Assembly: GCF_001854245.1 (NCBI RefSeq)
Contig: NZ_CP015381.1
Location: 1,957,001 to 2,021,000 of the forward strand
Direction of reading: 5' to 3'
Origin: Desulfococcus multivorans
Lineage (GTDB): Bacteria; Desulfobacterota; Desulfobacteria; Desulfobacterales; Desulfococcaceae
Length of the DNA stretch: 64,000 nt
Shown piece by piece: positions 1 to 41,355 of the stretch; position 1 is the first letter of the stretch, and every line of letters begins with the position of its first letter. The notes below the pieces were generated by a model. That model was not told the origin of the DNA and ran no database searches. It saw only the letters and a list, made by a program, of their open reading frames with translations. A program made the translations under genes and the position numbers.

Positions 1-66
1 TTTCCCCAACTCACCGTTCATACCCAGGAGCCGTTGCGATTCCAGATGGACGGGTCCTTGTCATGA
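1..66 (+). CDS. possible 3' end of an upstream gene
   Basis: Frame 1 is open from the first base to a TGA at 64-66 and would give the last 21 residues of a protein that begins before the window. Nothing in this short peptide identifies a family, and 21 open codons can occur by chance. It is recorded only because no other explanation for the first 66 bases is visible. Confidence 0.2.
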   Translation, partial: FPQLTVHTQEPLRFQMDGSLS

Positions 67-192
67 GATAACTTGCGTATTATAGTAAAAGGTAACGTTA
101 TGAGGACCCAGACATGCCGATAGAGGGCGCATTCAGGTTTTGGGTCTGGAAAGGTTCAATGGATTCCAATCTCAACAGAAAGGACGACCACC

Positions 193-462
193 ATGATCAG
201 CAAAGCCGAACTATGTGACAAAATTCGAAAAATATATCCGGATATCGGTGAGTGCGGGATTGACGTCGAGGTCGATTACGATGCCGAACAAAAAGCCTGG
301 GTCGTGGATCTCAAAAAAGGCGGCCATGAGCTCAAGACATTTCTCGAGGACAACGATGCGGAAAAATGCATGGAGGGAAAGCAGTGTGTCAGTCTGGGCA
401 TCGAAATTGCTCAACTTAGAGCGAATATCGAGAGAATGAAGGAAGCGGATGGCCGGTCGTGA
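193..462 (+). CDS. small acidic protein of unknown function
   Basis: An 89-residue protein preceded by AAAGGACGACC a few bases before the ATG. It is charged and acidic, has no signal peptide or membrane segment, and contains two cysteines in a central EKCMEGKQC stretch followed by a predicted amphipathic helix (residues about 66-85). I do not recognise a family. It stands alone: a strong terminator follows immediately and the next gene is on the other strand. The palindrome TAACGTTA lies about 93 bp upstream (93-100). That it is real rests on the ribosome binding site, the terminator placement and the protein-like composition. Confidence 0.65.
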   Translation: MISKAELCDKIRKIYPDIGECGIDVEVDYDAEQKAWVVDLKKGGHELKTFLEDNDAEKCMEGKQCVSLGIEIAQLRANIERMKEADGRS

Positions 463-473
463 AAATATTTTTC

Positions 474-522
474 GGGCATCTTGCGGGCGGCCTGTTGACG
501 GCCTCCGCAAGATGCCTTTCTT
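474..522 (+). terminator. rho-independent terminator
   Basis: A 12-13 bp stem (GGCATCTTGCGG pairing with CCGCAAGATGCC) closes a loop of about 17 bases and is followed by TTTCTTT. It sits 12 bases after the stop of the small protein gene. It also lies 3' of the minus-strand flavoprotein gene, so it may serve both. Confidence 0.85.
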
Positions 523-570
523 TGGAATGGCCCTGCGGCGGATTCGGTTTGACGGATGCCGCTGCAGAAG

Positions 571-2271
571 TTACATTCCCAGATAGTCCAGTTCGAAGGG
601 CCATGCCTCGTGGCCGCCTTCCATGAACCATACCCGATCGAATCCCGCGGCCTGAAGGATACGCTGGGCCTCATACCCCCTGAGGCTGATCTTGCAGAAC
701 GTGATGATGTCCTTGTCCCTGGGCAGCTCATTCAGGCGTTCGCGCAGTGAACCCAGGGGGATGTGGACGACCTTGTCATAAGCCATCTTGAGCATCTTGT
801 TCTCATCGGGCTCCCGGACATCCAGAAGCAGAACATCCCCTTGGTCCATCCGTTCCTTGGCGTCGTAAACACTGATGGATCGGGCGATGCCGTCCATCTT
901 GTTGCTGAGCACGTGGGCGCATACGGCGATGGGATCGATGGGTGGACCGAAGGGTGGGGCATACGCCAGATCAATATCGGCCAGATCCTCTACGGTCCCG
1001 CCGTAATAGAGGGTGCCGGCGGCCACGTCCAGGCGTTTGGCGCCGTCCCCGGCCCCGGCGACCTGAACTCCCAGTACCTTGCGGTCCCGCTTCGAGGCCA
1101 GCATTTTGATCAGGAAATAGCGGGCGTTCTTCATGTAATGCGGCCGATCGGGTCCGCCCCAGACGATGGATTCGTAAGCAATGCCCAGCTTTTTGGCCAT
1201 GGCTTCGGTCAGGCCGGTTCGACCGACGGTATAGTCAAAGACCTTGACGACGCCGGTGCCGTTGATGCCGGGAAAAGGCGTCTGCTGTCCGGCGATGTGA
1301 TTGGCGATGGTCCGTCCGTGCTTGTTGGCCGTCGACCCCAAAGGAACATACATGGGTGGGGCCACGGTTTTGTTGATGAAACGATTGAGTACGCAGTCGC
1401 CGCCGGCGTAGATATCCGGGTCGCTGGTCTGGCAATTGTTGTTGATGAGAATGCCCCGATCACAAAATAGCCCGGCTTCTCGGGCCAATTCGTCATTGGG
1501 GCGGGTACCCACGGCCACTACGACGCAGTCGGCTGAAATAGAACGTTGATCGGTTTTGACGGCCGTCACTTTGCCGTCCCCGTCGCCTTCGAGTCCCACC
1601 ACCCGTTCGCCCAGAGCCAGGTCCACATCATTGTCCTCCAGATGAAGCTGGACGTAGGCGGCCAGATCCCGATCCATCACGCCGGGCAGCACATGGTCGA
1701 ACATCTCGACCATGGTAACGTTCATATCCTTGTACATCAAGGCTTCGGCCATTTCCATGCCGATAAAACCAGCGCCCACCATTACGGCGTTTTTAAGCCC
1801 CTGGGCTGCGATTTCCTCTACGAGGGTCCGGGCGTGTTCGGGGTGGGTCATGAACCACACGTTTTTGAGATCGATGCCCGGGATGGGAGGACGAAAGGCC
1901 GAACCGCCGGCGGCGATCACCAGTTTGTCATAAGGCAGGTCCGATTCGACCCCGGTGTCGAGGGCTTTGACGGTTACGGTCTTCCGGCTCCGGTTGATCC
2001 GGATGGCCTCGGTTCGGGCAAGGACTTTGAATCCTTTGGTCTTTTCAAAAAATTCGGCGGTGCGCGGCAAGCCCACCTGAGTGTGAGTGAGGGCGTTGAT
2101 GTTCAGAAATTCGCCCTCAACGTAATAGGGAAGTCCGCAGGCACCGTAGGATATCAACCGGTCCCGTTCGATCATCGTGATATCCGCATCGGGACAGAGC
2201 CGTTTCAACCTCGAAGCGGTTTTCGGGCCGCACGCGACGCCGCCGATGATCAGGACACGCAAGTTAGACAT
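571..2271 (-). CDS. CoA-disulfide reductase-like flavoprotein with C-terminal rhodanese domain
   Basis: A 566-residue pyridine-nucleotide disulfide oxidoreductase. An N-terminal FAD-binding GGVACGPK loop is followed by SYGACGLPYY, the single redox cysteine context of CoA-disulfide reductases and NADH oxidases. An NAD-binding fold (GAGFIGMEMAEAL) and the FAD motif IYAGGDC come next. Residues about 470-566 form a rhodanese domain with LLLDVREPDE and active cysteine in FCKISLRG. Such fusions reduce CoA disulfide, persulfides or polysulfide with NAD(P)H in the cytoplasm. The ATG at 2271 is chosen because AAAGGA lies upstream and the FAD motif begins five residues in. The longer reading frame to 2331 lacks a binding site. 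It is monocistronic here. Confidence 0.9.
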   Translation of the reverse strand: MSNLRVLIIGGVACGPKTASRLKRLCPDADITMIERDRLISYGACGLPYYVEGEFLNINALTHTQVGLPRTAEFFEKTKGFKVLARTEAIRINRSRKTVTVKALDTGVESDLPYDKLVIAAGGSAFRPPIPGIDLKNVWFMTHPEHARTLVEEIAAQGLKNAVMVGAGFIGMEMAEALMYKDMNVTMVEMFDHVLPGVMDRDLAAYVQLHLEDNDVDLALGERVVGLEGDGDGKVTAVKTDQRSISADCVVVAVGTRPNDELAREAGLFCDRGILINNNCQTSDPDIYAGGDCVLNRFINKTVAPPMYVPLGSTANKHGRTIANHIAGQQTPFPGINGTGVVKVFDYTVGRTGLTEAMAKKLGIAYESIVWGGPDRPHYMKNARYFLIKMLASKRDRKVLGVQVAGAGDGAKRLDVAAGTLYYGGTVEDLADIDLAYAPPFGPPIDPIAVCAHVLSNKMDGIARSISVYDAKERMDQGDVLLLDVREPDENKMLKMAYDKVVHIPLGSLRERLNELPRDKDIITFCKISLRGYEAQRILQAAGFDRVWFMEGGHEAWPFELDYLGM

Positions 2272-2354
2272 GAGATTTTTCCTTTCGTCTGAAAAGGTCA
2301 TAATTTGAGCCGTTGCCGACAGAAACGACAAATGCGAATTATCTCTTTTATGGT

Positions 2355-2564
2355 TTATACAAAGATCCCCAGCGGTTTGTCAACGGGTTCACTTTGAATG
2401 ATTTCAAAAAAGTTTTCAAGAGGCGTTGATTCGGCCGATCTCCGAGTCGTTGCGAGTTCCGTCAGCCTGTCGACAAAATAGGTCTTCGCCTCGGCGTAAG
2501 CCTGTTGAGACGAGAAGACCGCTGCGGCTGACGTCATAAGATCAAATGCTTGGGGTGTATCCAA
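2355..2564 (-). CDS. doubtful small ORF in the gap upstream of the flavoprotein gene
   Basis: The 339-base gap between the flavoprotein and the CBS-PAS gene holds only this 69-codon frame. It begins with TTG (or an internal ATG ten codons on) and has no convincing ribosome binding site for either start. The composition is not obviously unlike protein, but no family is recognised. It may be noncoding leader DNA. Confidence 0.25.
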   Translation of the reverse strand: MDTPQAFDLMTSAAAVFSSQQAYAEAKTYFVDRLTELATTRRSAESTPLENFFEIIQSEPVDKPLGIFV

Positions 2565-2610
2565 GAATCAATCGGATTCGCGGTTCGTGAGGATCGACTG
2601 GTCCTGATCA

Positions 2611-4176
2611 TCAGTTCTCCTTGGTCGCTCTCTGGTAAATCATACCGCCGGAACCGTCCGGGACTTTTTTCAAATTCCAGTACTGTTCTCTGATCTCCGT
2701 CAATCGTTGCGTTACATCCTCAACGGCAATCATGACCTCATTGAGAAAATAATTCATCTCTGAAGCATGGGATGTGATTTCATCCAAGATTTTTTCCCAT
2801 CCTGTTGTTGCATCCCCATTGGATCCTTTCTCTGTCAGTGCTTCAATATCCGACAAAAAAGCTTTAATCATTTCAACGCCCATCATGATCACGTTCAGCG
2901 GTGATGCCAGATCATCCGCAAAACAGCCTGCAAGCTGGCTGATTGCCTCGAGCTCCTTTTGTCTGATTGCCTCCGTGATGTTGTGAGCGATTCCCTGATA
3001 AGAGACAACTTTTCCGGTGTCATCTCTTTGCGCAATGACATTCAAACCTATTTCGAATTTTTCGCCTTTGACATTCTGAAGCAACATTCTGGTCCGTGCG
3101 GCCTCTCCTTTTTCCAGAATCTCTTTGACCAGTGATGCCATTGTCGCAGGATCCACATAAAAATCCTTTATGTTTCTTTGTGTTGTTTCCTGTTTGCTGC
3201 TGAGTCCGAGAAGTTCGATGCCGGCTGGATTGATATCGAGGATTTGCCCATCTGTTTTAAGGATATATATCATATCCTTAGAGCGTTCGAAGATGCGTCG
3301 ATATTTTTCCTCACTCGCCTGGAGTTTGTCGAGTGCCTTCTTTTTTTCGGTGATGTCTTCAATAATATGATTGATTCTTCTTACCGCTCCTGTCTTCATG
3401 TATTCGACGCGACCGTAATCCAAAACCCATTTTATCTTGCCTTTCGGGGCAACAATCCGATAACTGATCTCAGAAAATCCCTTCTCAAACAAATCGGTGT
3501 AATGGGCAAGGACGTTATTCTTATCAAGGTCGTGAACGAAATCGAAAATACTTACTTTTTTGTTCAGAATATAAGATGCCGGCACTTCATAAAAAGAAAA
3601 GGCTGAGGAATTGACCTCCACAAGATGATCGTCAAAAAATGAAAAATCAGTTATGCTGTTTTTATCGACTTCTTCAATATATGAGAAAGAAAGCACCAGT
3701 TCACGCATGTGATCCAGAATGCTTCTGAGCCTTGTATTCAGTCTTTCAATTTCAAGTTTTTCTTTTTTTCTCTCGGTGATGTCCCTGATATAGTTGTCGT
3801 CCATGAATTTGCTGATATCGACGATGCCCAGGATGCGCTGTTGTTGATCCACCACCGGAAGCGCCAAAAGCTTATGGTGGGCCAGCAGGTCATAAGCCTG
3901 CGATATTGTCGCATGCTGGGGAATGGTTATCAGTTTTCGGATCATCAGCTCTGAAATGCGCTGGTCCAGGGGCGTAGTGAGCAGCCGTCGGGTCAGAATC
4001 ACACCCATCAATTGTCCGGCGTTGTCCACCACGTAGAAATAAACGATTTTTTCTCCGAAGCCATGCAATCTGATGTAGTCCAATGCTTGCTGAACAGTGT
4101 AATCCTCACGCAGCGTGATAATGTCCTGGTGCGCGATAGTCAAGGCCGGTTGATGTAAATCGATCTGTTCCTTCAT
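2611..4176 (-). CDS. CBS-PAS sensor protein with degenerate histidine-kinase dimerisation helix
   Basis: A 521-residue soluble protein. Residues about 10-130 are a tandem CBS pair. Two PAS domains follow (about 145-280 and 285-405, the second opening with ASEEKYRRIFERSKDMIYIL). The C-terminus (about 405-480) resembles a HisKA helix, ISQLAGCFADDLASPLN, but the phospho-acceptor histidine of the usual AHDF/AHEI motif is Asp here and no ATP-binding domain follows. The protein may therefore sense ligands or redox state and dimerise, but cannot act as a classical kinase. No strong ribosome binding site precedes the ATG, because repeat sequence lies directly upstream. Function is unknown beyond signalling. 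Confidence 0.8.
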   Translation of the reverse strand: MKEQIDLHQPALTIAHQDIITLREDYTVQQALDYIRLHGFGEKIVYFYVVDNAGQLMGVILTRRLLTTPLDQRISELMIRKLITIPQHATISQAYDLLAHHKLLALPVVDQQQRILGIVDISKFMDDNYIRDITERKKEKLEIERLNTRLRSILDHMRELVLSFSYIEEVDKNSITDFSFFDDHLVEVNSSAFSFYEVPASYILNKKVSIFDFVHDLDKNNVLAHYTDLFEKGFSEISYRIVAPKGKIKWVLDYGRVEYMKTGAVRRINHIIEDITEKKKALDKLQASEEKYRRIFERSKDMIYILKTDGQILDINPAGIELLGLSSKQETTQRNIKDFYVDPATMASLVKEILEKGEAARTRMLLQNVKGEKFEIGLNVIAQRDDTGKVVSYQGIAHNITEAIRQKELEAISQLAGCFADDLASPLNVIMMGVEMIKAFLSDIEALTEKGSNGDATTGWEKILDEITSHASEMNYFLNEVMIAVEDVTQRLTEIREQYWNLKKVPDGSGGMIYQRATKEN

Positions 4177-4184
4177 CTTAAAAA

Positions 4185-4233
4185 TTCAACTTTCGACGTT
4201 CATGATGGTGGCCGTATCCTCCCGGCACCGGTT
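4185..4233 (-). repeat. dispersed repeat, copy A (partial), forming a pseudogene 3' end
   Basis: Plus-strand TTCAACTTTCGACGTTCATGATGG is followed by GGCCGTATCCTCCCGGCACCGG. Both blocks recur in the large element at 51701-51942 and in copy B. The copy supplies the last 15 or so codons and the stop of the molybdenum hydroxylase pseudogene, and ends 8 bases before the CBS-PAS start codon. Confidence 0.75.
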
Positions 4234-5155
4234 CAGGGCTTCCTTGACCCGTTCCGGGGTCATGGGAAGTTGACGCAGCCTGGCTCCTGTCGCATCATAT
4301 ACCGCCGTGGCCAGGACGCCGCCCATGCAGATGATGGCGGGTTCTCCGCCGCCCTTCGGGGACAGGTTGGGGTTTTCCAGGATCACGGTCTCGAGCTCGG
4401 GCAGCCACGAAAATATTGGAATGGCATAGGTGTCCCATCCCCGGCAGCCGGATGTCCCCGGCGAATCGGGCCTTTCCCAGGACCTTCCGGATGGCGTCCC
4501 GCCGCAGGAAAGGCCTGCCGCTGGTGGTGTATGCCGATGCGGGTTTGAGCCGTGGCAGCTCCGAAAGATGCCGTTCGATGATCCGCCCTGCGGTGAGCGC
4601 TCCATAGGTCACCCGAATCGCAGGGCGTTCCCGGTCCCAGACCAGGCCGTTTTTGACCGACAGCCGATTCCTGGGGCAGGACAGCCGCTCAGCCGCCATG
4701 TCCAGGAGGACGGCTCTGGCCTCGCAGGCGGCCTCTTTGACGAAAATCCCGTAATAGCGGGTCGAAAGAGAGCCCCAGGTGCCGGCGTCCCAGGGGCAGA
4801 GATCCGTATCTCCCAGGACCATCTCCACCGATTCATAGGCCACGTCCAGCTCTTCGGCCGCCATCTGGGCGAAAGAGGTGATGACGCCCTGGCCCATTTC
4901 GATCTTTCCCACGAAGCAGGTCACCCGGTTGTCCGGATCGATGCGCAGAAAGGCATTGAAATCGCTCGGCACCCGGCTTCCGAGAAGCCCCGTTCTCAGG
5001 GCACGGGCCTCGGCAGGAAGATCTCCCAGGGTGCCGTAGATGACGAGGCCCCCGCCCAGAAGACCCATGCGCTTCAGAAACTCCCGCCGGTCCATGCCCG
5101 GGGAGGGGGCCGCCGCTTCGGTCCGATCCTGGATAAAAGGGACTTCCTTTTTCAT
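4186..5155 (-). pseudogene. molybdenum hydroxylase large subunit (IorB/aldehyde oxidoreductase family), internally deleted
   Basis: The N-terminal part (5155 to about 4440) is a normal start of the Mo-pterin subunit. It has a Tat-like RREFLKR signal, then EMGQGVITSFAQMAAEEL and LGDTDLCPWDAGTWGS. At about 4430 the homology jumps, in another frame, to the extreme C-terminus (YAIPIFSWLPELETV, then SPKGGGEPAIICMGGVLA and LPMTPERVKEAL). Family members are about 700-780 residues, so roughly 400-450 central residues, including most of the Mo site, are missing. The last codons come from a dispersed repeat. The ATG overlaps the stop of the small-subunit gene (ATGA). The Mo-pterin subunit cannot be functional. 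Confidence 0.85.
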
Positions 5156-5631
5156 GATTTGCCTCCTTTCAGCATCTCCGCCGCGGTGTGAACGGCCGCC
5201 AGGATGCGCACATGGGCCCCGCAGCGGCAGAGATGGTCGTCCAGGGCCTCGATGATCTCCTCCCGGGTGGGGCTCGGGTTGGATGCCAGCAGGCTGTGGG
5301 CCTTGAGGATCATGCCGGGGGTGCAGAACCCGCACTGGAGGGCGTCGTGGCGGACAAAGGCCTGCTGAATGGGATGGAGCTTCCCTTCCGCGCCGATCCC
5401 CTCGATGGTGGTGACGTGTCTCCCCGCCACGAACCCCACGGTGATCTGGCAGGAGGGGAGGGCTTCGCCGTCCACCAGGACCGTGCAGGCACCGCACGCC
5501 CCCTCGCCGCAGCCGTATTTGGTTCCCGTAAGGCCCAGATCGGTCCGAAGGACCCACAGGAGGGTCCGCTCCTCGTCGATGTCGAGGCTCACGGGTTTGT
5601 CGTTGAGGGTAAACCGGATTGTCTTCACCAT
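5152..5631 (-). CDS. 2Fe-2S small subunit of a molybdenum hydroxylase (IorA/CoxS family)
   Basis: A 159-residue protein with the standard two-cluster layout. A plant-type ferredoxin domain holds CGEGACGACTV plus a later single cysteine (residues about 40-75). A helical domain follows, with CGFCTPGM and CRCG (about 98-145). It would pass electrons from the Mo-pterin subunit. The start at 5631 is set by AGGGAGG just upstream; the longer frame to 5862 has no family similarity. It is translationally coupled to the large-subunit gene, which is a pseudogene, so this protein has no evident partner in the window. Confidence 0.9.
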   Translation of the reverse strand: MVKTIRFTLNDKPVSLDIDEERTLLWVLRTDLGLTGTKYGCGEGACGACTVLVDGEALPSCQITVGFVAGRHVTTIEGIGAEGKLHPIQQAFVRHDALQCGFCTPGMILKAHSLLASNPSPTREEIIEALDDHLCRCGAHVRILAAVHTAAEMLKGGKS

Positions 5632-5939
5632 CGGAAACCTCCCTTGTGTAAGGGTTTTCGGCCAGGAGGGCGATTCGTCGCAACACAAAGGGGGCAGCGA
5701 TCGGGGCAGTTCGCGGCGCAGACCCTTTCGGGGAACTTTTTCTATCTCTTGCAGATACCTGATTTGCGTCGTGATGTCCATAGGCAGGCATGGCGATCGG
5801 GAGCACTCTTTCGGATGGATTCCAGTGGGGCTCGGTTGAGTCGGCGCGGAGACGGTCCGCAAAATACATCTGAAAGGTCTCAGGCAGATTGAATTGAATG
5901 GTTTTTTAAAAAAATTGTGGTATTCTATATTTTTCGATG
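5632..5939. other. intergenic, no gene seen
   Basis: About 300 bases upstream of the small-subunit gene. Reading frames here look like shadows without family resemblance or binding sites. An AT-rich stretch (5900-5940) precedes repeat copy B. No promoter is clear. Confidence 0.5.
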
Positions 5940-6017
5940 ATTCAATTTTCGACTTTCATGATAGCGACCGGACAGCGGTGCCGGGAGGATAGGGCCTATG
6001 AAAGTCGAACGTTGAAT
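5940..6017. repeat. dispersed repeat, copy B, complete with terminal inverted repeats
   Basis: A 78-bp element bounded by ATTCAATTTTCGACTTTCAT and ATGAAAGTCGAACGTTGAAT, which are inverse complements with one or two mismatches. The centre contains GACCGGACAGCGGTGCCGGGAG. This is the clearest complete short copy in the window and shows the element's ends. Confidence 0.85.
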
Positions 6018-6094
6018 CGGTGATGGAAACGATGTTTCAGATTGAGAGATGCTGCTCCCGCGCCGGGGCGAAACCATCGGAAAAAGGAACGGAA

Positions 6095-6934
6095 ATGAAG
6101 ACCTACGAACAAGCTATCAACGATCACTACAGCCGGGACAATCTCACCGACAGCATTCAGTCGGCGCTTGACAGGAGTGGACACGTCGTCTCTTCACACG
6201 AGGATACCGCCGGGTTTGATGAATTTCACATCCGGGGACGAGAGGCCACGCGGGAGCTGGCCGATTTGGCCGGGCTGGAAAAGGGGATGACGGTTCTTGA
6301 TCTGGGGTGTGGGATCGGCGGACCTGCGCGGACCCTGGCGGCGGAGTACGGGTGCATCGTGACCGGGATCGATCTCGTGGCGGAATACTGCCGGGCCGCG
6401 GAAATGTTGACGGCAAAGGTCGGCCTCTCGGAACGGGTTCGTTTTCAGCACGGCGATATGACGGCATTGCCTTTTGATCCGGAGACTTTTGATGTCGTTT
6501 GGACATTGCACACCACCATGAACATCGAGAACAAGGCGGCGCTTTTTTCAGGGGTGGCTCGGGTGCTCAGGCCCGGAGGGCTCCTGGCCCTCTACGAGGT
6601 GTGCTCAGGGGATGTCAAGCCGCCGTATTATCCTGTTCCCTGGGCAAGCGACGGCACCATCGACTTCCTTGTCCCGTCCGATGTCCTGAAACGCCTGATT
6701 TCCGTTTCGGGGTTCACGGAAGTGGCGTGGCGGGACGTTTCTACGGCGTCCCTGGACTGGCTGAGACGGACGATAGATGCCAAAAAAACCGCAGCCGCAG
6801 CGGGCGCTCCCCGAACCGTGGGGCTGGGTGTCGTGATGGGCAAGACGGCGGCTCAGAAAAGCGGCAACATGGTTCGGAACCTCGATGAGGATCGGATTCG
6901 TATCTTCCAGGGTGTTTTCCGGCGTGCTTCCTGA
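6095..6934 (+). CDS. SAM-dependent class I methyltransferase
   Basis: A 279-residue methyltransferase of the UbiE/glycine-sarcosine type. Motif I is VLDLGCGIGGPART (about residues 65-78), the acidic GIDL end of strand 2 follows, and QHGDMTALPF and FDVVWTLHTTMNI match motifs II-III. The start at 6095 has AAGGAACGGAA upstream and gives the best N-terminus; the frame reaches back to 6020 without support. It lies just 3' of repeat copy B and converges on the FadR-type regulator 8 bases away. The substrate cannot be told from sequence. Confidence 0.85.
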   Translation: MKTYEQAINDHYSRDNLTDSIQSALDRSGHVVSSHEDTAGFDEFHIRGREATRELADLAGLEKGMTVLDLGCGIGGPARTLAAEYGCIVTGIDLVAEYCRAAEMLTAKVGLSERVRFQHGDMTALPFDPETFDVVWTLHTTMNIENKAALFSGVARVLRPGGLLALYEVCSGDVKPPYYPVPWASDGTIDFLVPSDVLKRLISVSGFTEVAWRDVSTASLDWLRRTIDAKKTAAAAGAPRTVGLGVVMGKTAAQKSGNMVRNLDEDRIRIFQGVFRRAS

Positions 6935-6942
6935 GCCGACGT

Positions 6943-7662
6943 TTACGTGTCCTCCTGGTGGAAATTCTTGAAAAAATCCATCACGAAATCGATGTGATGT
7001 TTCATGGCTGCAAAAGCGCCTTCGGCATCCCGGTTTTTGATGGCCTCGATGATGGCGACGTGCTGGTTGAAGATCTGGTCGATGTTGCTGGGGTCTTCGT
7101 ATAGATACCGGAGGTTTTCCTTGATCCCGATAAACAGGAAATCGAAGAAGATCTTCATCAGGTAGATCTGAACCGGATTTTTGGTCGCATAGGTGATGGC
7201 CATATGAAACGATACGTCCGCCTCGTTTCCCAATTCGCCGTTTCGGATCTGATCTTCCAGTTCCTTAAGGCTTTTTTCGAGAAATCCAATATCCTTCTCA
7301 TCCGCCCGTCGAGCCGCGAGGGCCGCTGCGTTGGTTTCCAGACCCATCCTTACCTCGAGCAGGTCCGTGAGCGAGGCATCCTGATTCTCCATGGCAACGG
7401 CGAGGGGGCTCTTCCGGATGGATTCGGTGCCGCGTACGAAGGTGCCTTGTCCCTGCTTCTGATCCAGAAATCCCATCACTACCAGTTTTCTGAGGGCATC
7501 CCTGACCGAGGTTCGGCTGACGCCCAGGGCGTCAGCCAACTCCCGTTCCGGCATGATTTTTTCGCCGGGTTTAAGTTCGCCTCGGAAAATGAGCTCTCTC
7601 AGCTGTTCGAAGACCTGGTCGGATATTCGCTTGGGTTTGATCGGCTTGAGTTCAATTTTCAT
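6943..7662 (-). CDS. FadR/GntR-family regulator of lactate utilisation
   Basis: A 239-residue regulator. Residues about 10-75 are a GntR winged helix (SDQVFEQLRELIFRGELKPG, ELADALGVSRTSVRDALRKL). Residues about 95-225 are an all-helical FCD ligand domain with metal-binding-type residues, as in LldR and PdhR. It is the last gene of a minus-strand operon with glcD and glcF, and its start overlaps glcF by 11 bases. The divergent intergenic region carries two TGGT-N3-ACCA palindromes, the operator form of this family. It most likely represses both lactate operons until lactate or a related acid binds. The effector is an inference. Confidence 0.88.
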   Translation of the reverse strand: MKIELKPIKPKRISDQVFEQLRELIFRGELKPGEKIMPERELADALGVSRTSVRDALRKLVVMGFLDQKQGQGTFVRGTESIRKSPLAVAMENQDASLTDLLEVRMGLETNAAALAARRADEKDIGFLEKSLKELEDQIRNGELGNEADVSFHMAITYATKNPVQIYLMKIFFDFLFIGIKENLRYLYEDPSNIDQIFNQHVAIIEAIKNRDAEGAFAAMKHHIDFVMDFFKNFHQEDT

Positions 7663-8983
7663 GTCGTTTCAATTGCTCCGCGTAAATTTCGACGGGATGC
7701 CTGACGGCAACGCGATCTCCGGATCTCGAAAGGGCGTCGGCAATCTGAAGCATGCATGCCGGGCACCCGGTCGCCACGGACGAGCATCCGGTCGCCACGA
7801 TATTGTCCCGTTTCTGGCGGCCGATAGTAGAAGAAATTCCATAATACTGCAAATTAAAACTGCCCCCCATGCCGCAACACCAGTCGGACGATGCCATCTC
7901 CTTCAACTGATAACGGGGGTTCGCCTTGATCATGGCCCTGGGCTCCACCGAGACGCCCAACGCTTTTTTCAGGTGGCAGGGATCGTGATACGTGATGACT
8001 TCGGGTGGATTTTCGGTGTCGCCGCCAACACCGCGGACCGGGGGGGCAAGCCCGATGATATTGACCATAAACGCATTGATATCCATCGTTTTTTCAGCGA
8101 TCCGCTCCACCCTTCGCAACAGCCCCATGTCGCCGTTTCCCGCAGCTTCGGCCATGGCCGGCCAAACCTCCTTGAAGGTTGAGGTGCAGGTGGCGCAGGC
8201 GGTGACGAGATAATCGAACTCACCGGGGTTGAAGCTGTTGAGATTATGCTCCAGGAGACTTCTGAAGGTTTTCATGTCTCCGGAGGAAACAGCCGGGATC
8301 CCGCAACAGGCCTGGTTCTCCGGCAGGACAATGCCGACTTCGTGATAGGTGAGCACGTCGACGACCGCCTGGGCGATGTGCGGGAAGATCTTGTCGATGA
8401 GGCACCCCACGTAAAAGGCGGCGCGAACGCCGGATTTTCCCGGACGGGTTTTCAGAACCGGCACCATCTTGTGAAAAGGGGTTTCCGCCAGATTTTTGAA
8501 ATGTCGGCGGCCAAGCAGCGGGGAAATGACCCTTGCGCAGGATGTGCCCACGACGTCGTTTACGGGCCGGGTGAAGACTTTCTGGAATCTGGCACCCCAT
8601 TCGGCCATTCGATCGAACAACTCGGGGTGGGCCAACATGCCTCTCAGCACCAGTTTTTTCGCCGGCGGAAGGTCCATGTATCCGGTGAGGATGGCCCTTG
8701 CCTTCATGAAAATTTCCAGAACATTGACACCCGAGGGACAGTTTGCGGCGCAGGACCCGCATAACAAACACTTGTTAAGCCGTTCGTAAACCCCTTCCGG
8801 ATCCTTGAACATCTCGTGCATCAAACCGTCCAGGAGCGCCAGTTTACCCCGGGCAACGTCCGCCTCACGGCCGGTCTGGTCGTAAAGGGGGCAAACCGAC
8901 TGGCACATGCCGCACCGCATGCAAACCACGAGCTGATCTTCGAGCTCCTTCATCAGATGGGCGAGCGCTTTCATATCGGACAT
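7652..8983 (-). CDS. glcF: GlcF-like Fe-S subunit of D-lactate/glycolate dehydrogenase
   Basis: A 443-residue iron-sulfur protein. The N-terminal half has two 4Fe-4S motifs (CMRCGMCQSVCPLY and CLLCGSCAANCPSG). The C-terminal half has two CCG domains (YVGCLIDK, QACCGIP; then CHLKKALG, DWCCGMGG). It accepts electrons from the partner flavoprotein and passes them to the membrane pool. The start at 8983 follows AGGAGG closely and lies 2 bases after the glcD stop. It resembles both glycolate oxidase GlcF and the lactate dehydrogenase Fe-S subunits of sulfate reducers; the lactate neighbours favour the latter. Confidence 0.88.
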   Translation of the reverse strand: MSDMKALAHLMKELEDQLVVCMRCGMCQSVCPLYDQTGREADVARGKLALLDGLMHEMFKDPEGVYERLNKCLLCGSCAANCPSGVNVLEIFMKARAILTGYMDLPPAKKLVLRGMLAHPELFDRMAEWGARFQKVFTRPVNDVVGTSCARVISPLLGRRHFKNLAETPFHKMVPVLKTRPGKSGVRAAFYVGCLIDKIFPHIAQAVVDVLTYHEVGIVLPENQACCGIPAVSSGDMKTFRSLLEHNLNSFNPGEFDYLVTACATCTSTFKEVWPAMAEAAGNGDMGLLRRVERIAEKTMDINAFMVNIIGLAPPVRGVGGDTENPPEVITYHDPCHLKKALGVSVEPRAMIKANPRYQLKEMASSDWCCGMGGSFNLQYYGISSTIGRQKRDNIVATGCSSVATGCPACMLQIADALSRSGDRVAVRHPVEIYAEQLKRHEN

Positions 8984-8985
8984 GA

Positions 8986-10371
8986 TCAGCCTCCTATTAT
9001 CTTGCCGGGATTCAAAATGTTCCTGGGGTCGAGCGCCGCCTTGACGGCGCGGGAATACTGGATGGTGGCAGGACTGGTCTCTTTTTCCAGAAAGCATGAC
9101 TTGGCAATGCCGGTGCCGTGTTCGCCCGACAGCGTACCGCCCATGGCAAGAGCCTTGTCGAAAATCGCTGCGATGGCGGCTTCAACCCGCTCCCACTCCT
9201 CGGTATTTCGCTTGTCCGTCAGAATGGTGGGGTGAAGATTTCCATCCCCGGCGTGACCGAACGTGCCGATTTCGAGACGGTATTTTGCCGCGATATCCTG
9301 CATGGCCTGAACCATCTCGGGAATCCGGCTTCGGGGGACCGTGGCATCCTCCAGCACCAGGGTGGGCTTGAGTTTGGCGAGGGCTGACAGGGCGCTGCGC
9401 CGGGCAGCCCAGACCTTGTCGCGTTCGGCATCGTCCTTGGCGACACGAATGTCGACGGCGCCCTGTTGCCGGCAGATTTCCTCCACCTTTACGGCGTCCT
9501 CCTCGACCATGGCGGGGTGGCCGTCAACCTCGATGAGAAGAAGGGCCGCGGCGTCGGTGGGAAGGCCTGCCCGGCTGTAGCTTTCCACGGCGCGGATCGT
9601 AAAATTGTCCATGAATTCGAGGGTACAGGGGATGATCCGGGCGGCAATAATGGCCGCCACCGCCTCGGATGCCTTGATGATCTGATTGAAGACGGCCATC
9701 ATGGCTTTGCGATGCGCCGGGAGGGGAATGAGTTTCAGCGTGATTTCATCGAAAACGCCAAGGGTTCCCTCGGATCCCACCAGGAGACCGGTCAGATTGT
9801 AGCCGGTGGCGCATTTGACGGTTTTTGCGCCGGTCTTGACGATCTCCCCGTTCGTATCAAAGAACTTCAACCCCATGACATAATCCGAAGTGACACCGTA
9901 TTTGAGGCCCCTGAGGCCGCCGGCGTTCTCCGCGACGTTTCCACCAAGGGTCGAAACGGCTTGGCTTCCGGGGTCCGGCGGATAGAAGAGCCCTTTGGCC
10001 TGGGCGGCCGCGGCGAACTGGGCGGTCACCACTCCGGGCTGAACCACGGCGTACATGTCCGCTTCATTGATTTCCAGGATCCGCTTCAGGCCGTTGGTCA
10101 GAATGACGACACCTTCCCGAGCCGTGGGAACGGTGCCGCCGCTCAGGTTGGTGCCCGCTCCGCGCACGGTGACGGGCAGACCGTTCTCGCCGCAGACCTT
10201 CACGCTGCGACCCAGCGCTTCACTGGTCGTGGGACGGATCACCAATGCGGGGACAACCGGCTTGACCACGGCGGCGTCGTAGGAGTAGGTGAGAAGGTCT
10301 GCGTCGTCGGTGAAGACATTCTCGGCACCCACGATGTTCTTGAATTCCTTGATGAGAGCGGGATTGAGCAT
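8986..10371 (-). CDS. glcD: FAD-linked D-lactate/glycolate dehydrogenase (GlcD family)
   Basis: A 461-residue flavoprotein of the VAO/PCMH type. FAD-binding segments include VTVRGAGTNLSGGTVP (about residues 65-80), PPDPGSQAVSTLGGNVAENAGG (in two parts, about 130-152) and the C-terminal FGHAGDGNLHP and SGEHGTGI motifs typical of D-2-hydroxyacid dehydrogenases. It oxidises D-lactate or glycolate and is coupled to the adjoining GlcF subunit. The gene heads the minus-strand operon and is divergent from lutABC, with a 431-bp control region between them. The chirality of the substrate is inferred from family and neighbours. Confidence 0.9.
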   Translation of the reverse strand: MLNPALIKEFKNIVGAENVFTDDADLLTYSYDAAVVKPVVPALVIRPTTSEALGRSVKVCGENGLPVTVRGAGTNLSGGTVPTAREGVVILTNGLKRILEINEADMYAVVQPGVVTAQFAAAAQAKGLFYPPDPGSQAVSTLGGNVAENAGGLRGLKYGVTSDYVMGLKFFDTNGEIVKTGAKTVKCATGYNLTGLLVGSEGTLGVFDEITLKLIPLPAHRKAMMAVFNQIIKASEAVAAIIAARIIPCTLEFMDNFTIRAVESYSRAGLPTDAAALLLIEVDGHPAMVEEDAVKVEEICRQQGAVDIRVAKDDAERDKVWAARRSALSALAKLKPTLVLEDATVPRSRIPEMVQAMQDIAAKYRLEIGTFGHAGDGNLHPTILTDKRNTEEWERVEAAIAAIFDKALAMGGTLSGEHGTGIAKSCFLEKETSPATIQYSRAVKAALDPRNILNPGKIIGG

Positions 10372-10457
10372 AGGGTTCGTCTCCTAAAAATTGGTTTAGC
10401 GTTCGCTTGACGCCAAGACAGGCTGATCAAGTACGCCAATCAACGGAAATCGGTTAA

Positions 10458-10468
10458 TGGTAGTACCA
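10458..10468. promoter_or_regulatory. candidate FadR-family operator, glcD side
   Basis: TGGTAGTACCA, a perfect TGGT-N3-ACCA palindrome, matches the operator core used by LldR/PdhR-type FadR regulators. It lies about 90 bp upstream of the glcD start, close to where transcription would begin from the weak candidate promoter at 10480-10508. Confidence 0.65.
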
Positions 10469-10479
10469 AAATCAAAAAA

Positions 10480-10508
10480 TACCAATGCGATGTATCGACA
10501 ACTGTCAA
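10480..10508 (-). promoter_or_regulatory. candidate glcD operon promoter
   Basis: On the minus strand TTGACA (complement of 10503-10508) is followed, 17-18 bases on, by a poor -10 (TTGGTA or TGGTAT). A perfect -35 with a weak -10 next to an operator is plausible for a regulated promoter, but this is a soft call. Confidence 0.35.
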
Positions 10509-10573
10509 TATTTGGATAACCTATTTAATCGTTTAAGTATCATTCATAATATTTTATTTCAAGTATTTTTTTC

Positions 10574-10602
10574 TTGACATCGAAAAAGGGCTCATTTATA
10601 AA
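10574..10602 (+). promoter_or_regulatory. lutABC operon promoter (sigma-70 type)
   Basis: TTGACA at 10574-10579, 17 bp, then TATAAA at 10597-10602, close to consensus. The predicted start of transcription is near 10609, leaving a leader of about 190 bases before lutA. It directly abuts the palindrome at 10605-10617, the arrangement expected for repression. Confidence 0.75.
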
Positions 10603-10604
10603 TT

Positions 10605-10617
10605 ATGGTCATACCAT
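10605..10617. promoter_or_regulatory. candidate FadR-family operator over the lutABC start site
   Basis: ATGGTCATACCAT has five-base arms around a 3-bp centre, TGGT-N3-ACCA. It begins 2 bases after the -10 box, so a bound repressor would block RNA polymerase. Together with 10458-10468 it gives one site per divergent operon. Confidence 0.7.
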
Positions 10618-10802
10618 TGATCAAAATAACCTTTTAGTGTGTTGAAAAGGCGATCGCCCGCAGCGATACGTCCATAATCTCCAACAAAAAAATCAACCGA
10701 AGCGCAGAAAAAACGATATTTGTCTTTTCCTGAGACACCGTGGGGTCGATCGAAACATTTCCCGACCACGGGAAGTAATCATTCGGAAACAGAGGAGAGG
10801 TG

Positions 10803-11552
10803 ATGCGTCAATATCCCCCAAAACCCGAAAAGGTCTACTTTTTCGGCACCTGTCTGATCGACATGGCCTATCCGGAAGCGGGTATGGCCGCTATCCATCT
10901 CATCCAACGCGAAGGCGTGGAGGTCGTCTTTCCGCACGAACAGTCCTGTTGCGGTCAGCCGGCTTACAACTCCGGATTCCCGGAGGAGGCTCGTCGGGTG
11001 GCGGAAAAACAGTTGGAGATATTCTCCAAGCCCTATCCGATAGTCGTCCCGTCAGGCTCATGCGCGGGTATGATGCGCCACCATTATCCCAGACTTTTCG
11101 CGAAAGATCCGGGTCTATCCCGGGTCAAAGCCTTTTCGGAGCGGATTTTCGAGCTGACGGAATTTCTGGTCCATGTTCTCCACATCCAGCTGGAGGACCG
11201 GGGGGAGCCGGTCACCGTGACATGGCATTCCTCCTGTCACGCCGCTCGGGAGATGGGCGTCATCGAAGACAGCAAATCTCTTATCAGGCAGCTTGGAAAC
11301 GTCAAACTGGTGACGCTTGAAAACGAGCACCAGTGCTGCGGATTCGGCGGCACTTTTGCGGTCAAGCAACCGGAGATTTCCGAGGCAATGGTGACGGACA
11401 AGATCGACGATATCCGGAAGACGGGCGCCGCGGAGGTGCTGGGCGGCGACTGCGGCTGTCTCATGAACATTACCGGCGCCATGAGCTATCGGCGGATACC
11501 GATCACCGGTCGACATATCGCCGAATTCATATGGGAGCGCATTCATGACTGA
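10803..11552 (+). CDS. lutA: lactate utilisation protein LutA
   Basis: A 249-residue protein made of two cysteine-rich CCG domains. The first has FFGTCLID, HEQSCCGQPAYNSG and SGSCAGMM; the second has WHSSCHAAREMG, EHQCCGFGGTF and GDCGCLMNI. It is one subunit of the LutABC L-lactate oxidase, which turns lactate into pyruvate through Fe-S clusters. GGAGAGGTG precedes the ATG at 10803; a GTG one codon earlier is possible. Its stop overlaps the lutB start by 8 bases. Confidence 0.93.
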   Translation: MRQYPPKPEKVYFFGTCLIDMAYPEAGMAAIHLIQREGVEVVFPHEQSCCGQPAYNSGFPEEARRVAEKQLEIFSKPYPIVVPSGSCAGMMRHHYPRLFAKDPGLSRVKAFSERIFELTEFLVHVLHIQLEDRGEPVTVTWHSSCHAAREMGVIEDSKSLIRQLGNVKLVTLENEHQCCGFGGTFAVKQPEISEAMVTDKIDDIRKTGAAEVLGGDCGCLMNITGAMSYRRIPITGRHIAEFIWERIHD

Positions 11553-12966
11553 AACCCAATTCGACTTTCAGGCCAATATCCGTAAAGCCCTGGCCAACCG
11601 ACAGCTGAGATCGAACCTCTCGTTCGCAATGGGCAGCATGACCGCCAAGAGAAAGGCGATCTTCAGCGATGCAGCGGCTTTCGAGGCGCTCAGGGCCCAG
11701 GGAAACGCCATCCGGAGGCGTGCCTTGCTCCAACTGCCGGAACTGCTTGAGCGGCTCGAAAAGAAATGCATCGAAAACGGCATGTCGGTCCACTGGGCCG
11801 AAACAACCGATGAGGCCAACCGGATCGTTCTCGGCATTCTTCGGGATCATCATGCCCGGCGGTTGGTCAAGGGCAAATCCATGGTCTCCGAGGAGATGCA
11901 TCTCAACCGGTTTCTCGCCGACCACGGTGTCGAGTCCCTTGAAACGGATCTGGGGGAATTCATCATTCAGCTCGACGGGGAGACGCCGTCCCATATCATT
12001 GTCCCGGCCATTCACAAAAACAAGCAGGAGATCGCCAGGACCTTCCACGAGAAGATTCCGAACACGCCCTACACGGAGGCCGTCGAGGAGCTCAACGCCA
12101 TCGCCCGGAAAACCCTTCGACGGAAGTTTTACGAAGGGGAGGTCGGGTTGAGCGGCGTCAACATGGCCGTTGCCGAAACCGGCACCCTCTGTCTCGTCGA
12201 AAATGAAGGCAACGGCCGAATGTGCACCACGGTTCCACCGGTTCACATCGCCGTGATGGGGCTTGAAAAGGTCGTGGAAAAGCTTTCCGACGTGCCGCCG
12301 CTGCTGCGGCTTCTCACGGGCTCGGCCACCGGACAGCTCATCACAACCTATGTCAACATGATCTCGGGGCCGAGAAAGCCCGACGAAAAGGACGGACCCC
12401 GGGAAATCCATCTGATCCTTCTGGATAACGGGCGCTCCCGGATACTGTCCGATGAACAACTGCGGCAGACGCTTCAATGCATCCGGTGCGGGACCTGCCT
12501 CAACCATTGTCCTGTCTACACCCGTATCGGCGGGCATGCCTATGGCTTCATCTATCCCGGTCCCATCGGAGAGATCCTGACCCCTCAAATGGAGGGGCTC
12601 GACAAAGCCGGCGGCATTCCCACGGCCTCGACGCTCTGCAATGCCTGCGAGGAGGTCTGTCCGGTGAAGATTCCCATACCGGATCTGATCCGACGGCTCA
12701 GGAACGAAAGTTACGACCCGAACGGATCGGTGCCGGGGCACGGATTCAAACGGACGTTTGCCGAGGCCGCCGTGTGGAAGGCATGGGCGCTGGTCAATCG
12801 CCACCGGGGCTTGAACGCCCTCGTCACGAAAATGGCGCCTGTTTTGAGTCCGATCCTGCCGCGTTTAGGCCCTCTTGAGGCATGGACCCGTGGTCGGATC
12901 CGACCGCGTTTTTCCCAAAAAAGCCTTCATGAGAGGGTCAGAGAGAAAGGGATCAAGGATGCCTGA
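11545..12966 (+). CDS. lutB: lactate utilisation Fe-S protein LutB
   Basis: A 473-residue protein. Residues about 60-300 are a LUD domain with the AVAETGTLCLVENEGNGR signature. A dicluster ferredoxin domain (CIRCGTCLNHCPVY, CNACEEVCPVKIPI; about 310-395) and a C-terminal tail follow. It is the electron-transfer core of LutABC. The start overlaps lutA and the end overlaps lutC, so the three genes are translationally coupled under the promoter at 10574. Confidence 0.93.
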   Translation: MTETQFDFQANIRKALANRQLRSNLSFAMGSMTAKRKAIFSDAAAFEALRAQGNAIRRRALLQLPELLERLEKKCIENGMSVHWAETTDEANRIVLGILRDHHARRLVKGKSMVSEEMHLNRFLADHGVESLETDLGEFIIQLDGETPSHIIVPAIHKNKQEIARTFHEKIPNTPYTEAVEELNAIARKTLRRKFYEGEVGLSGVNMAVAETGTLCLVENEGNGRMCTTVPPVHIAVMGLEKVVEKLSDVPPLLRLLTGSATGQLITTYVNMISGPRKPDEKDGPREIHLILLDNGRSRILSDEQLRQTLQCIRCGTCLNHCPVYTRIGGHAYGFIYPGPIGEILTPQMEGLDKAGGIPTASTLCNACEEVCPVKIPIPDLIRRLRNESYDPNGSVPGHGFKRTFAEAAVWKAWALVNRHRGLNALVTKMAPVLSPILPRLGPLEAWTRGRIRPRFSQKSLHERVREKGIKDA

Positions 12967-13633
12967 AAAATCACGTGAACGGATCTTGCGAAGAATAAGC
13001 AGTGCTCTGGGAGATCGACGGAACCTTCCGTCTGTTCCCGCACCGCTTCAAACGCCTCCTTTGAGCCGGGAGGAAAAGATCGAACAACTGAAAACCCGGA
13101 TGACGGCAATGCGAAGCGAGGTGCATGTGGTCCCGAAAGGGGACCGTGACGCGCTGTGGACGGATCGTCTGAAGACCATCGTCGTCGAAAAAGGGCTGAA
13201 GCAGATGCTCTACGCCCCCGGGACGCCGGTGGGAGACGCCGTGGCAGCGGCATGGGCTGCAGGGGATGCGGGACTTCCCGTACTCGAACCCTACGACGCA
13301 CCGGTGGAAACCTTCAAGGAAGCCCTTTTCTCTATGGATGCGGGCATCACCGCGACCATGGGCGGCATCGCCGACACCGGCGCTCTGATCCTCTGGCCCG
13401 ACGAAAACGAACCCCGTCTCATGTCCCTCGTCCCCGAGGTCCACATCGCCGTTCTTGACGCCGATCGCATCTATGAGAGCTTTTCCGAAGCGATGGAGAA
13501 ATGCGTGTGGGCCGACGGGATGCCCACCAACGCGCTCCTGATATCCGGACCGTCCAAAACCGCCGATATTGAACTGGTGTTGGCGTTCGGTGTTCACGGG
13601 CCCAAAGAACTGGTGGTCCTGATCTTGACCTGA
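12959..13633 (+). CDS. lutC: lactate utilisation protein LutC
   Basis: A 224-residue LUD-domain protein with the late signature ATMGGIADTGALILWPDE (residues about 134-151), where LutC proteins have an AxIAETGTLV-like motif. The C-terminal DIELVLAFGVHGPKELVV matches family ends. The frame runs back to 12875, but the ATG at 12959, inside the lutB end and near AAAGGGATCAAGG, is the fitting start. It is the last gene of the lut operon, followed by a hairpin terminator. Confidence 0.92.
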   Translation: MPEKSRERILRRISSALGDRRNLPSVPAPLQTPPLSREEKIEQLKTRMTAMRSEVHVVPKGDRDALWTDRLKTIVVEKGLKQMLYAPGTPVGDAVAAAWAAGDAGLPVLEPYDAPVETFKEALFSMDAGITATMGGIADTGALILWPDENEPRLMSLVPEVHIAVLDADRIYESFSEAMEKCVWADGMPTNALLISGPSKTADIELVLAFGVHGPKELVVLILT

Positions 13634-13647
13634 TAAAACATGGATAG

Positions 13648-13680
13648 CACCGGCCGGCCAGAGGTAGCCGGTGTTTCTGT
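13648..13680 (+). terminator. terminator after lutC
   Basis: CACCGGC (13648-13654) pairs with GCCGGTG (13667-13673) around a 12-base loop, followed by TTTCTGT. It sits 15 bases after the lutC stop. The modest stem and short T-run suggest partial read-through to the permease gene is possible. Confidence 0.6.
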
Positions 13681-13690
13681 AACTACGTGG

Positions 13691-13773
13691 CCTTCGATTT
13701 TCGTAATGTCGACCGGAAACCGGTGAAGCCTTTCCTGGAATTCACCGCCCCACGGAAGTCGAAGGTTGAATCA
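13691..13773. repeat. dispersed repeat, copy C
   Basis: It starts with CCTTCGATTTTCGTAATG and TCGACCGGAAACCGG, and ends GGAAGTCGAAGGTTGAATCAT, the inverse of the left end. The middle differs from copy B (a GGTGAAGCC...GAATTCACC palindrome replaces it). It lies between lutC and the lactate permease. Confidence 0.7.
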
Positions 13774-13814
13774 TCATAACCGTCAACAGCTTTTTATTTT
13801 TACATGGAGGACCG

Positions 13815-15524
13815 ATGAGTTTAGGATTTCAATCTTTCATGGCGGTGCTGCCCATTCTGACGGCAGCCGTTCTTCTGGTGGGATTTCGTTGGCCGGCAAA
13901 ATGGGCCATGCCCATCTGCTACGTGGTAGCCGTTCTGATTTCATTTATTTTCTGGCATGTGGATGTCGTGCGCATTGTCGCATCGACGATCCAGGGGCTT
14001 TTCATCACCGCAGACATTCTGTTTATCATTTTCGGCGCCATTCTGCTGCTCAACACTCTCAAACATTCAGGCGCCATCAGCGCCATTCGAACCGGTTTTA
14101 CCAAAATCAGTCCGGACAGGCGGGTGCAGGTCGTGTTGACGGCCTGGTTGTTCGGTGCCTTCATCGAGGGGGCCTCGGGGTTCGGCACCCCTGCAGCCAT
14201 CGCGGCGCCCTTGATGGTGGCGATCGGGTTTCCGGCATTGGGGGCCGTCATGATCGGCATGATGATCCAGAGCACCCCCGTAACCTTCGGGGCTGTGGGA
14301 ACCCCCATTCTCATCGGTGTCAAGGGGGGGCTGGAAAATCCCCAGCTGACGGCCCTGCTGGCCGAGGTAGGCATGGATTTCAGCCAGTATCTTCAGCTGA
14401 TTACAGCTGCATCCGCCATCTTCCACGCCATTGCGGGAACCTTGATTCCCACGTTTATGGTGGTGATGATGACGCGTTTCTTCGGCAGGAACAAATCGTG
14501 GACCGAAGGCCTGTCGATTTTGCCGTTCTCCATCATGGGCGGCCTTGCTTTCACCATACCGTATATGTTGACCGGTATATTTCTCGGCCCTGAATTTCCC
14601 AGCCTCATCGGCGCGCTCATCGGTATGGCCATTATGACGACCGCAGCCACCAAGGGGTTCCTGGTACCCAAGGACATCTGGGATTTCCCGCCCCGGGAAG
14701 AATGGGAACCCGGCTGGATGAGCCAGATGGAAATCAAACTGGATGCCCTGACCTCTAAAAAACCCATGAATCTCACCCTGGCATGGATTCCTTACCTGCT
14801 GGTGGCCATTATCCTCGTGCTGACGCGGTTGGGACAGCTGCCCCTGGGTACCTGGCTCAAAAGCGTCAAATTTCCCTGGTCGGACATACTCGGTACGGGC
14901 ATCAGCGCTGCTTTCGTGCCCCTCTATCTGCCCGGGGCCATCCTTTGCTTCGTCGTATTGATCACTTATTTTCTCCACAAAATGAGCTGGAACGAACTCT
15001 CGCTCGCCATCAAGGAATCCAGCAGCATTCTCCTGGGCGCCGGATTCGTGCTCATTTTCACCATTCCCATGGTTCGGGTGTACATCAACTCCGGCGTCAA
15101 TGCCGCCGGATATTCCAGCATGCCCCTGGCCATGGCTGAATGGGTGGCCGCCAATGTGGGGCAGGTCTGGCCTTTCTTCGCACCGCTCATCGGTGCACTG
15201 GGCGCCTTTATCGCGGGCAGCAACACGGTCAGCAACCTCATGTTCAGCCTGTTTCAGCACGGCGTCGCCCAGAATCTCGCCATTTCGGGTGTCGTGGTCG
15301 TGGCCCTTCAGGCCGTTGGCGCTGCTGCGGGGAACATGTTCTGCATCCACAATGTGGTGGCGGCATCCGCTACCGTCGGATTGCTGGGTCAGGAAGGCAA
15401 CACCCTCCGCCGGACCATCATTCCAACCCTCTATTATTGCATCCTCGTCGGTATTCTCGGCCTGCTGGTAATTTATGCCATGGGATACCATGATCCTCTG
15501 AATGCTTACCTGGTGAGTCGTTAG
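13815..15524 (+). CDS. lldP: L-lactate permease
   Basis: A 569-residue integral membrane protein with about 13-14 hydrophobic segments and the LctP family landmarks FIEGASGFGTPAAIAAP (residues about 115-131) and FIAGSNTVSNLMFSLFQ (about 465-481). It imports lactate with protons. GGAGG lies 6 bases before the ATG. It follows lutABC after a hairpin and a repeat copy, so it may be co-transcribed by read-through or have its own promoter. Its place completes the uptake-and-oxidation set. Confidence 0.95.
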   Translation: MSLGFQSFMAVLPILTAAVLLVGFRWPAKWAMPICYVVAVLISFIFWHVDVVRIVASTIQGLFITADILFIIFGAILLLNTLKHSGAISAIRTGFTKISPDRRVQVVLTAWLFGAFIEGASGFGTPAAIAAPLMVAIGFPALGAVMIGMMIQSTPVTFGAVGTPILIGVKGGLENPQLTALLAEVGMDFSQYLQLITAASAIFHAIAGTLIPTFMVVMMTRFFGRNKSWTEGLSILPFSIMGGLAFTIPYMLTGIFLGPEFPSLIGALIGMAIMTTAATKGFLVPKDIWDFPPREEWEPGWMSQMEIKLDALTSKKPMNLTLAWIPYLLVAIILVLTRLGQLPLGTWLKSVKFPWSDILGTGISAAFVPLYLPGAILCFVVLITYFLHKMSWNELSLAIKESSSILLGAGFVLIFTIPMVRVYINSGVNAAGYSSMPLAMAEWVAANVGQVWPFFAPLIGALGAFIAGSNTVSNLMFSLFQHGVAQNLAISGVVVVALQAVGAAAGNMFCIHNVVAASATVGLLGQEGNTLRRTIIPTLYYCILVGILGLLVIYAMGYHDPLNAYLVSR

Positions 15525-40862: not shown

Positions 40863-41355
40863 GATTTTCCCGGGTTCTGTTGAAGTGATCCGAAGGTGCC
40901 GGCGACGGTCATCCCTGGCGGGGGAGAGTCACCGGTGCGGTTCTGCAAGGCCGTGGTGCTTTGCCCTGCGGCCTTTCAGGCGCCGATGACAGCCATCGGG
41001 CCGGTCTTGACAAGGGTGTGTGCTGCCGGCTGTGCGACGGAACAGCCTTGAAAGGGTTGCAGCCGTTGTTTCGTCCGTCAAAAATATCTACCCTCAACTT
41101 TCGACTTTCACAGGCCGTATCTTTTCGGTCATCGTCATGAAAGTCGAAAATTGAAATCTACCCTTAAATTGACCGCCTGTCAATCGTGTCCATGGATATG
41201 GGTCAAGGAGGCGGCACCGGCTCATGAATACCGAAAGTCGAATAATGATCCTCTGGTTCCGGCATCGCCATATTTCCCATTGATGATCCGGGGCGAGTCG
41301 TGTACATCGGTGTCTCGACCACGCTCAAACCTGAACAGTCATGAAAGGATGCCAT
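40863..41355. other. 493-base gap: repeat copy E, otherwise no feature
   Basis: Between divergent genes (radical SAM operon and YqeY). Several GC-rich hairpins are seen (GCCTGAAAGGCC at about 40970, GCCGGCGACGG near 40900). I looked for TPP, cobalamin, glycine and ZTP riboswitch cores on both strands and saw none convincing. Repeat copy E lies at 41092-41157. Confidence 0.5.
41092..41157. repeat. dispersed repeat, copy E, compact and complete
   Basis: CTCAACTTTCGACTTTCAC at the left and CATGAAAGTCGAAAATTGAA at the right form terminal inverted repeats; the centre (GGCCGTATCTTTTCGGTCATCG) is short. At 66 bp it is the shortest apparently complete copy. Confidence 0.8.

Follow-up and report, generated by a model that had tools for sequence, protein, structure and literature searches.

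A probable deletion pseudogene of a molybdenum hydroxylase large subunit, with a MITE fragment at its 3' end, in Desulfococcus multivorans

The window analysed here, a stretch of 64,000 nucleotides, corresponds to bases 1957001-2021000 of the single 4,455,399-bp contig of Desulfococcus multivorans. It contains an intact gene for the small subunit of a molybdenum hydroxylase, two remnants of the adjoining large-subunit gene, and copies of a short repeat, arranged as follows (in window coordinates, with loci fetched from this and other genomes given L numbers, and genomes G numbers).

5940..6017, no strand assigned: complete short copy of the MITE, between the small-subunit gene and a methyltransferase gene; both arms matched, no exact target-site duplication.
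5152..5631, minus strand: intact [2Fe-2S] small-subunit gene, 159 aa (Pfam Fer2_2 1.6e-30, Fer2 6.2e-11).
4436..5155, minus strand: N-terminal large-subunit remnant of 240 codons, which reaches through the first part of MoCoBD_2 (2.8e-25) into the beginning of the hammerhead region; residues 1-242 of L036 are matched at 69% identity.
4434..4436, minus strand: deletion junction, placed where the N- and C-terminal homologies end; the frame changes and about 1238 nt present in intact orthologues are absent.
4295..4435, minus strand: out-of-frame stretch of 46 codons plus the stop TGA (4297-4295), the end of the product as now translated from the ATG.
4232..4434, minus strand: C-terminal remnant in the ancestral frame, from DTYAIP to VKEAL, retaining the GGGEP motif; 77% identity to L036 residues 653-722.
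4184..4231, minus strand: MITE fragment (copy A), comprising the inner segment and one terminal arm, with the gene-side arm absent.

The small-subunit gene is full length with both the Fer2 and Fer2_2 domains, shares 65-71% identity with the small subunits of loci L004, L005, L036, L037, and L038, and has eight cysteines in what we take to be the expected CxxxxCxxC...C, CxxC, and CxC groups. Its TGA (5154-5152) overlaps the large-subunit ATG (5155-5153), so that the earlier note was right in calling it intact and coupled to the remnant. The same note described the enzyme as decaying, which fits the large subunit with its deletion and frameshift, but the small subunit shows no sign of decay. 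Directly downstream of the large-subunit remnant, at 2611-4176 on the minus strand, is a gene for a CBS-CBS-PAS-PAS protein in which Pfam finds no kinase domain; its C-terminus presumably resembles a histidine-kinase dimerisation helix with aspartate in place of the expected histidine. A scan for promoters and terminators gave no signals above the chance level.

Comparison of the large-subunit remnant with its orthologue L036 (724 aa, counted from the start used) gives two collinear blocks on the minus strand, covering residues 1-242 and 653-722, and there is no match at the window locus to L036 between residues 242 and 653. The last N-terminal homologous codon is the ATG at 4438-4436 and the first C-terminal one is the GAC at 4434-4432, in a different frame, with base 4435 assignable to neither side with certainty. 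The claim of the earlier note that homology runs from the N-terminus to the extreme C-terminus across one junction with a frame change is thus borne out. The product read from the ATG at 5155 is 286 aa long; its stop, at 4297-4295, comes 63 nt ahead of the repeat, and there is no single open frame from the N-terminus to the GGGEP region, which we take to hold the catalytic glutamate in the xanthine-oxidase family. Translation from the ATG never enters the ancestral frame, and the TGA carried by the repeat (4188-4186) closes only that frame. The proposal that the gene takes its stop from a repeat copy is accordingly half right, applying to the gene as it stood before the deletion, or to its fossil end, but not to the present product, and the related proposal that its last 15 codons are repeat-derived holds for the ancestral frame, to which copy A (4184-4231) gives the last 14 sense codons plus the TGA, but not for the translated product.

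The domain content of the two pieces agrees with this layout. The N-terminal remnant begins with what we presume to be a twin-arginine-like leader and matches MoCoBD_2 only partially, over profile positions 49-183 of 283, and neither hammerhead nor MoCoBD_1 is found by Pfam in the window pieces. The C-terminal remnant alone has no Pfam match at 0.01, and gives weak NCBIfam matches to the C-termini of molybdenum hydroxylase large subunits, the best at 3.2e-6. Intact L036 has a MoCoBD_1 match of 2.7e-38, while its hammerhead match falls below the Pfam cut-off (25.4 vs 31.3 bits). Among solved structures, L036 has its best E-value with the alpha subunit of 4-hydroxybenzoyl-CoA reductase (1rm6_A, 3.9e-50 over four stretches), and next comes 8gy3_C, an aldehyde dehydrogenase large subunit (2.4e-49), whose best stretch, L036 residues 19-470, starts near the N-terminus of both proteins, with the first part of MoCoBD_2 preceding the hammerhead region. 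The window gene differs from these molybdenum hydroxylases in that about 1238 nt are absent and the frame is broken.

The NCBIfam equivalog cut-offs are not reached, the scores being far below them, and the substrate is therefore left unassigned; the names IorB and isoquinoline come from the earlier note, and none of the searches here returned the name IorB. No cytochrome or FAD subunit was recognised by Pfam among nine neighbouring frames of the orthologues, nor anything else related that might indicate a substrate. When six orthologue neighbourhoods, a few kb on each side, were compared with the window frames at 1-12000, only the large-subunit frame matched; the small subunit does not figure in that comparison because the frame picker chose longer frames overlapping it. 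The main text of the genome paper (PMC5109826) describes four aldehyde dehydrogenases, with three aldehyde:ferredoxin oxidoreductases and one NAD-dependent enzyme, and contains no words beginning 'pseudogene' or 'molybd'. Literature searches for isoquinoline 1-oxidoreductase in sulfate reducers returned a single match, concerning SAR324, and those for deletion pseudogenes of molybdenum hydroxylase large subunits returned only matches on other subjects.

To determine the size of the loss, the spacing between the two junction codons (ATG and GAC) was sought in 18 orthologue loci and could be measured in 16; the other two, L071 and L078, were missed by the spacing pattern, although both match nearly the whole length of L036. 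The spacing is 1239 nt in ten rows, representing seven distinct genes because the same or near-identical genes were fetched twice (L036/L070, L037/L074, and L038/L073), and 1242 nt in five further distinct orthologues, as against 1 nt in the window. Of the relatives compared, those that resemble the window most (L004, L005, L036, L037, and L038) all have the 1239-nt form. This puts the net loss at 1238 nt (1241 had the ancestor been of the 1242 form), neither a multiple of three, and both values lie within the 1.2-1.35 kb that had been estimated from the sequence of this stretch by itself. The comparison with relatives and full-length proteins that the earlier note proposed thus supports its reading with twelve distinct intact orthologues. 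It had also said that an intact homologue reading in frame across the junction would refute that reading; such homologues do exist in other species, but they show the ancestral state and not an intact copy here.

When carriers were sought among 388 other genomes of the order (E up to 1e-40), 17 were found to have the large-subunit gene, which is open over 721 aa or more in 15 of them, and nine of these order-wide loci were inspected further together with L004 and L005. The same-genus genome G001 has the large-subunit gene intact. In locus L077 the matched part of the small subunit comprises residues 97-157 only. Locus L081, in genome G058 of another family, has a putative in-frame large-subunit loss of about 108 codons (a 915-nt spacing vs 1239/1242, and a 630-aa frame) and the subunit order large-small rather than small-large, and may include an assembly fault. 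Repeated truncation, which might have signalled selection, was considered and rejected: the apparent truncation at L080 (G070) coincides with a run of 100 N, and the in-frame loss at L081 is an independent event, in a genome whose completeness is rated at 79%. Nor has the missing middle moved elsewhere in the D. multivorans genome, where a search with the middle of L036 returned paralogues alone (31-34% identity). Large-subunit genes do remain elsewhere in the genome, open over 871, 777, and 775 aa, as does one maturation gene of the XdhC/CoxI type.

We conclude that this is very probably an ordinary pseudogene, in which the large-subunit gene has suffered an internal deletion of about 1238 bp with a frameshift and carries a MITE fragment at its old 3' end. 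The ancestral state would have been a two-gene operon for a xanthine-oxidase-family molybdenum hydroxylase, with the small [2Fe-2S] subunit followed by the large subunit. A deletion of this size would have removed about 57% of the large-subunit gene, including most of the hammerhead region, MoCoBD_1, and part of MoCoBD_2, and by shifting the frame would have left a 286-aa fragment with 46 foreign residues that is presumably unable to form the molybdopterin site. The loss, the change of frame and the joining to the MITE can be read from the sequence itself, and the loss of function, the mechanism and order of events, and their recent date are inferred. At the breakpoint, the letters of the orthologues, none of them a close intact sister, suggest at most about one shared base of microhomology.

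Plasmid libraries can lose toxic inserts. The living strain could accordingly have a full-length gene and the deletion be an artefact of assembly or cloning, which would be in keeping with how little the surviving pieces have decayed. There is no repeat of at least 25 bp in window positions 1-15000 (12-base seeds) that would favour a misassembly. According to the published account of the genome (PMC5109826), which we take to describe the assembly containing the window, it was sequenced by the Sanger method to 15-fold coverage from plasmid and fosmid libraries, with the fosmids used for finishing and for confirming the assembly at 84-fold physical coverage, and with a stated error below 1 in 100,000. 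This coverage makes an artefact most unlikely.

The state of the surviving pieces bears both on the age of the loss and on whether they might still function. Outside the deletion neither piece contains a stop or a frameshift. At positions invariant in eight orthologues the window is changed at 3/56 in the N-terminal part, 1/16 in the C-terminal part, and 1/57 in the small subunit; leave-one-out counts for the N-terminal part of the orthologues themselves are 0/56 (L004), 1/57 (L005), 1/57 (L036), 0/56 (L037), 7/63 (L038), 1/57 (L039), 13/69 (L040), and 12/68 (L041). In each comparison, differences are most frequent at third codon positions. The N-terminal part is 70, 68, and 70% identical to L004, L005, and L036, which are 74-77% identical among themselves, and this lower identity hints weakly at relaxed constraint. 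Accelerated evolution of the remnant is not seen in tree distances to the outgroup L041, which lie within the range of the intact genes both for the N-terminal part (1.45 for the window, 1.28-1.77 for the others) and for the small subunit (1.05 vs 0.78-1.36). With little or no excess change in the remnants, the loss of the large-subunit middle looks recent relative to the divergence of the compared genomes. Such good preservation counts somewhat against the pseudogene reading; it suits a recent loss but is no proof of non-function.

The same preservation could be expected if the remnant were still functional in concert with the small subunit, either as a small exported Fe-S partner or as a half subunit like the medium subunit of nicotinate dehydrogenase (3hrd_B), which is the best match of the N-terminal remnant among solved structures (4.4e-15); both pieces are open and little changed. 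The out-of-frame deletion, however, adds 46 unrelated residues and the C-terminal half of MoCoBD_2 is not co-translated, and no comparable form occurs among the 17 other carriers in the order, where the two exceptions are one scaffold gap and one in-frame loss. We regard such a working pair as barely credible. That the 286-aa exported fragment and the intact small subunit form a molybdenum-free Fe-S pair in a new role, with the gutted gene maintained, is just as implausible, and would, if true, explain the little or no excess change in both pieces. The deletion pseudogene thus remains the preferred reading.

The repeat at the end of the gene belongs to a family that is a MITE, having terminal inverted repeats, short length, many copies, and target-site duplications. 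Arms of about 18-20 bp match 11 times in the window against 0.04 expected, so the repeat is not a product of chance, and genome-wide there are 276 arm matches with at most two mismatches and none for a reversed control pattern. A stricter arm pattern occurs 174 times in the D. multivorans genome, once in the same-genus genome, and not at all in 54 other relatives. Complete copies were sampled from 42 genome stretches (41 fetched loci and the window), giving 33 of 57-237 bp, of which 12 are 57-61 bp and nine are 235-237 bp. Exact target-site duplications of at least 5 bp flank 20 of the 33, compared with 1.12 on average, and never more than 5, in 1000 sets of shuffled flanks; 19 of these 20 are 7-9 bp (nine bp being the longest sought), and the remaining 13 copies, including that at 5940-6017, have none of at least 5 bp. 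Further copies lie in the window at 51704-51939 and 41092-41156. The consensus arm has stops in two frames when read outward and none when read inward. The genome holds one Y1-transposase-like frame, and a literature search for MITEs in Desulfococcus returned only a match concerning an acidobacterium.

Copy A, which the earlier note had called simply a repeat, is a truncated member of this family, lacking the gene-side arm. Among 29 places in the fetched loci that carry the inner segment of the MITE, the segment is followed directly by one arm in 15 and by the other-side arm in 12 (degenerate in L011), and in L027 by a degenerate first arm; copy A is the sole place without any arm there, gene sequence standing in its stead. 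A '..VK.AL' motif is followed by a last four or five residues in the proteins of four of the five closest orthologues (that of L038 is longer), and in the window this motif runs straight into the element. Together these observations point to a small rearrangement, separate from the deletion, that joined the end of the gene to the MITE interior. The MITE could also be supposed to be responsible for the missing middle, through a deletion adjoining an insertion, for instance, since its fragment sits at the 3' end of the gene concerned, roughly 200 bp away from the junction. Against this, there is no MITE sequence at the junction, and about 200 bp of conserved coding sequence separate it from the fragment, so we consider such a role for the element very unlikely and favour two separate events.

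Elsewhere in the genome, open frames at L032 (457-1542), L053, and L059 run into MITE copies and end there, and are candidate genes; that of L032 has no Pfam match. Frames of this kind were not accepted as further instances of genes ending inside MITE copies: of six that were scanned, five lack any Pfam match, and the other, a phospholipase A1 (L031), stops just short of its element. A precedent is provided by QMITE2 of Coxiella burnetii, which according to the published description (PMC5896051) was fused to enhC by an indel and extends that gene by 33 residues. It too is a short MITE, with direct repeats of 7-11 nt, and the element linked to the gene supplies its C-terminus. The repeat family and the host differ, as does the position of the stop, which in enhC lies immediately downstream of the element; in D. 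multivorans the stop is inside copy A and the gene is additionally gutted by a separate deletion.

Neither the correction to the annotation nor the MITE family alters the general view. For annotation, it is best to merge the two open frames at 5155-4186 into a single pseudogene and not to credit this strain of Desulfococcus multivorans with this molybdenum enzyme. The MITE family, with many copies here and almost none in the relatives searched, can fuse to the end of a gene, as in Coxiella.
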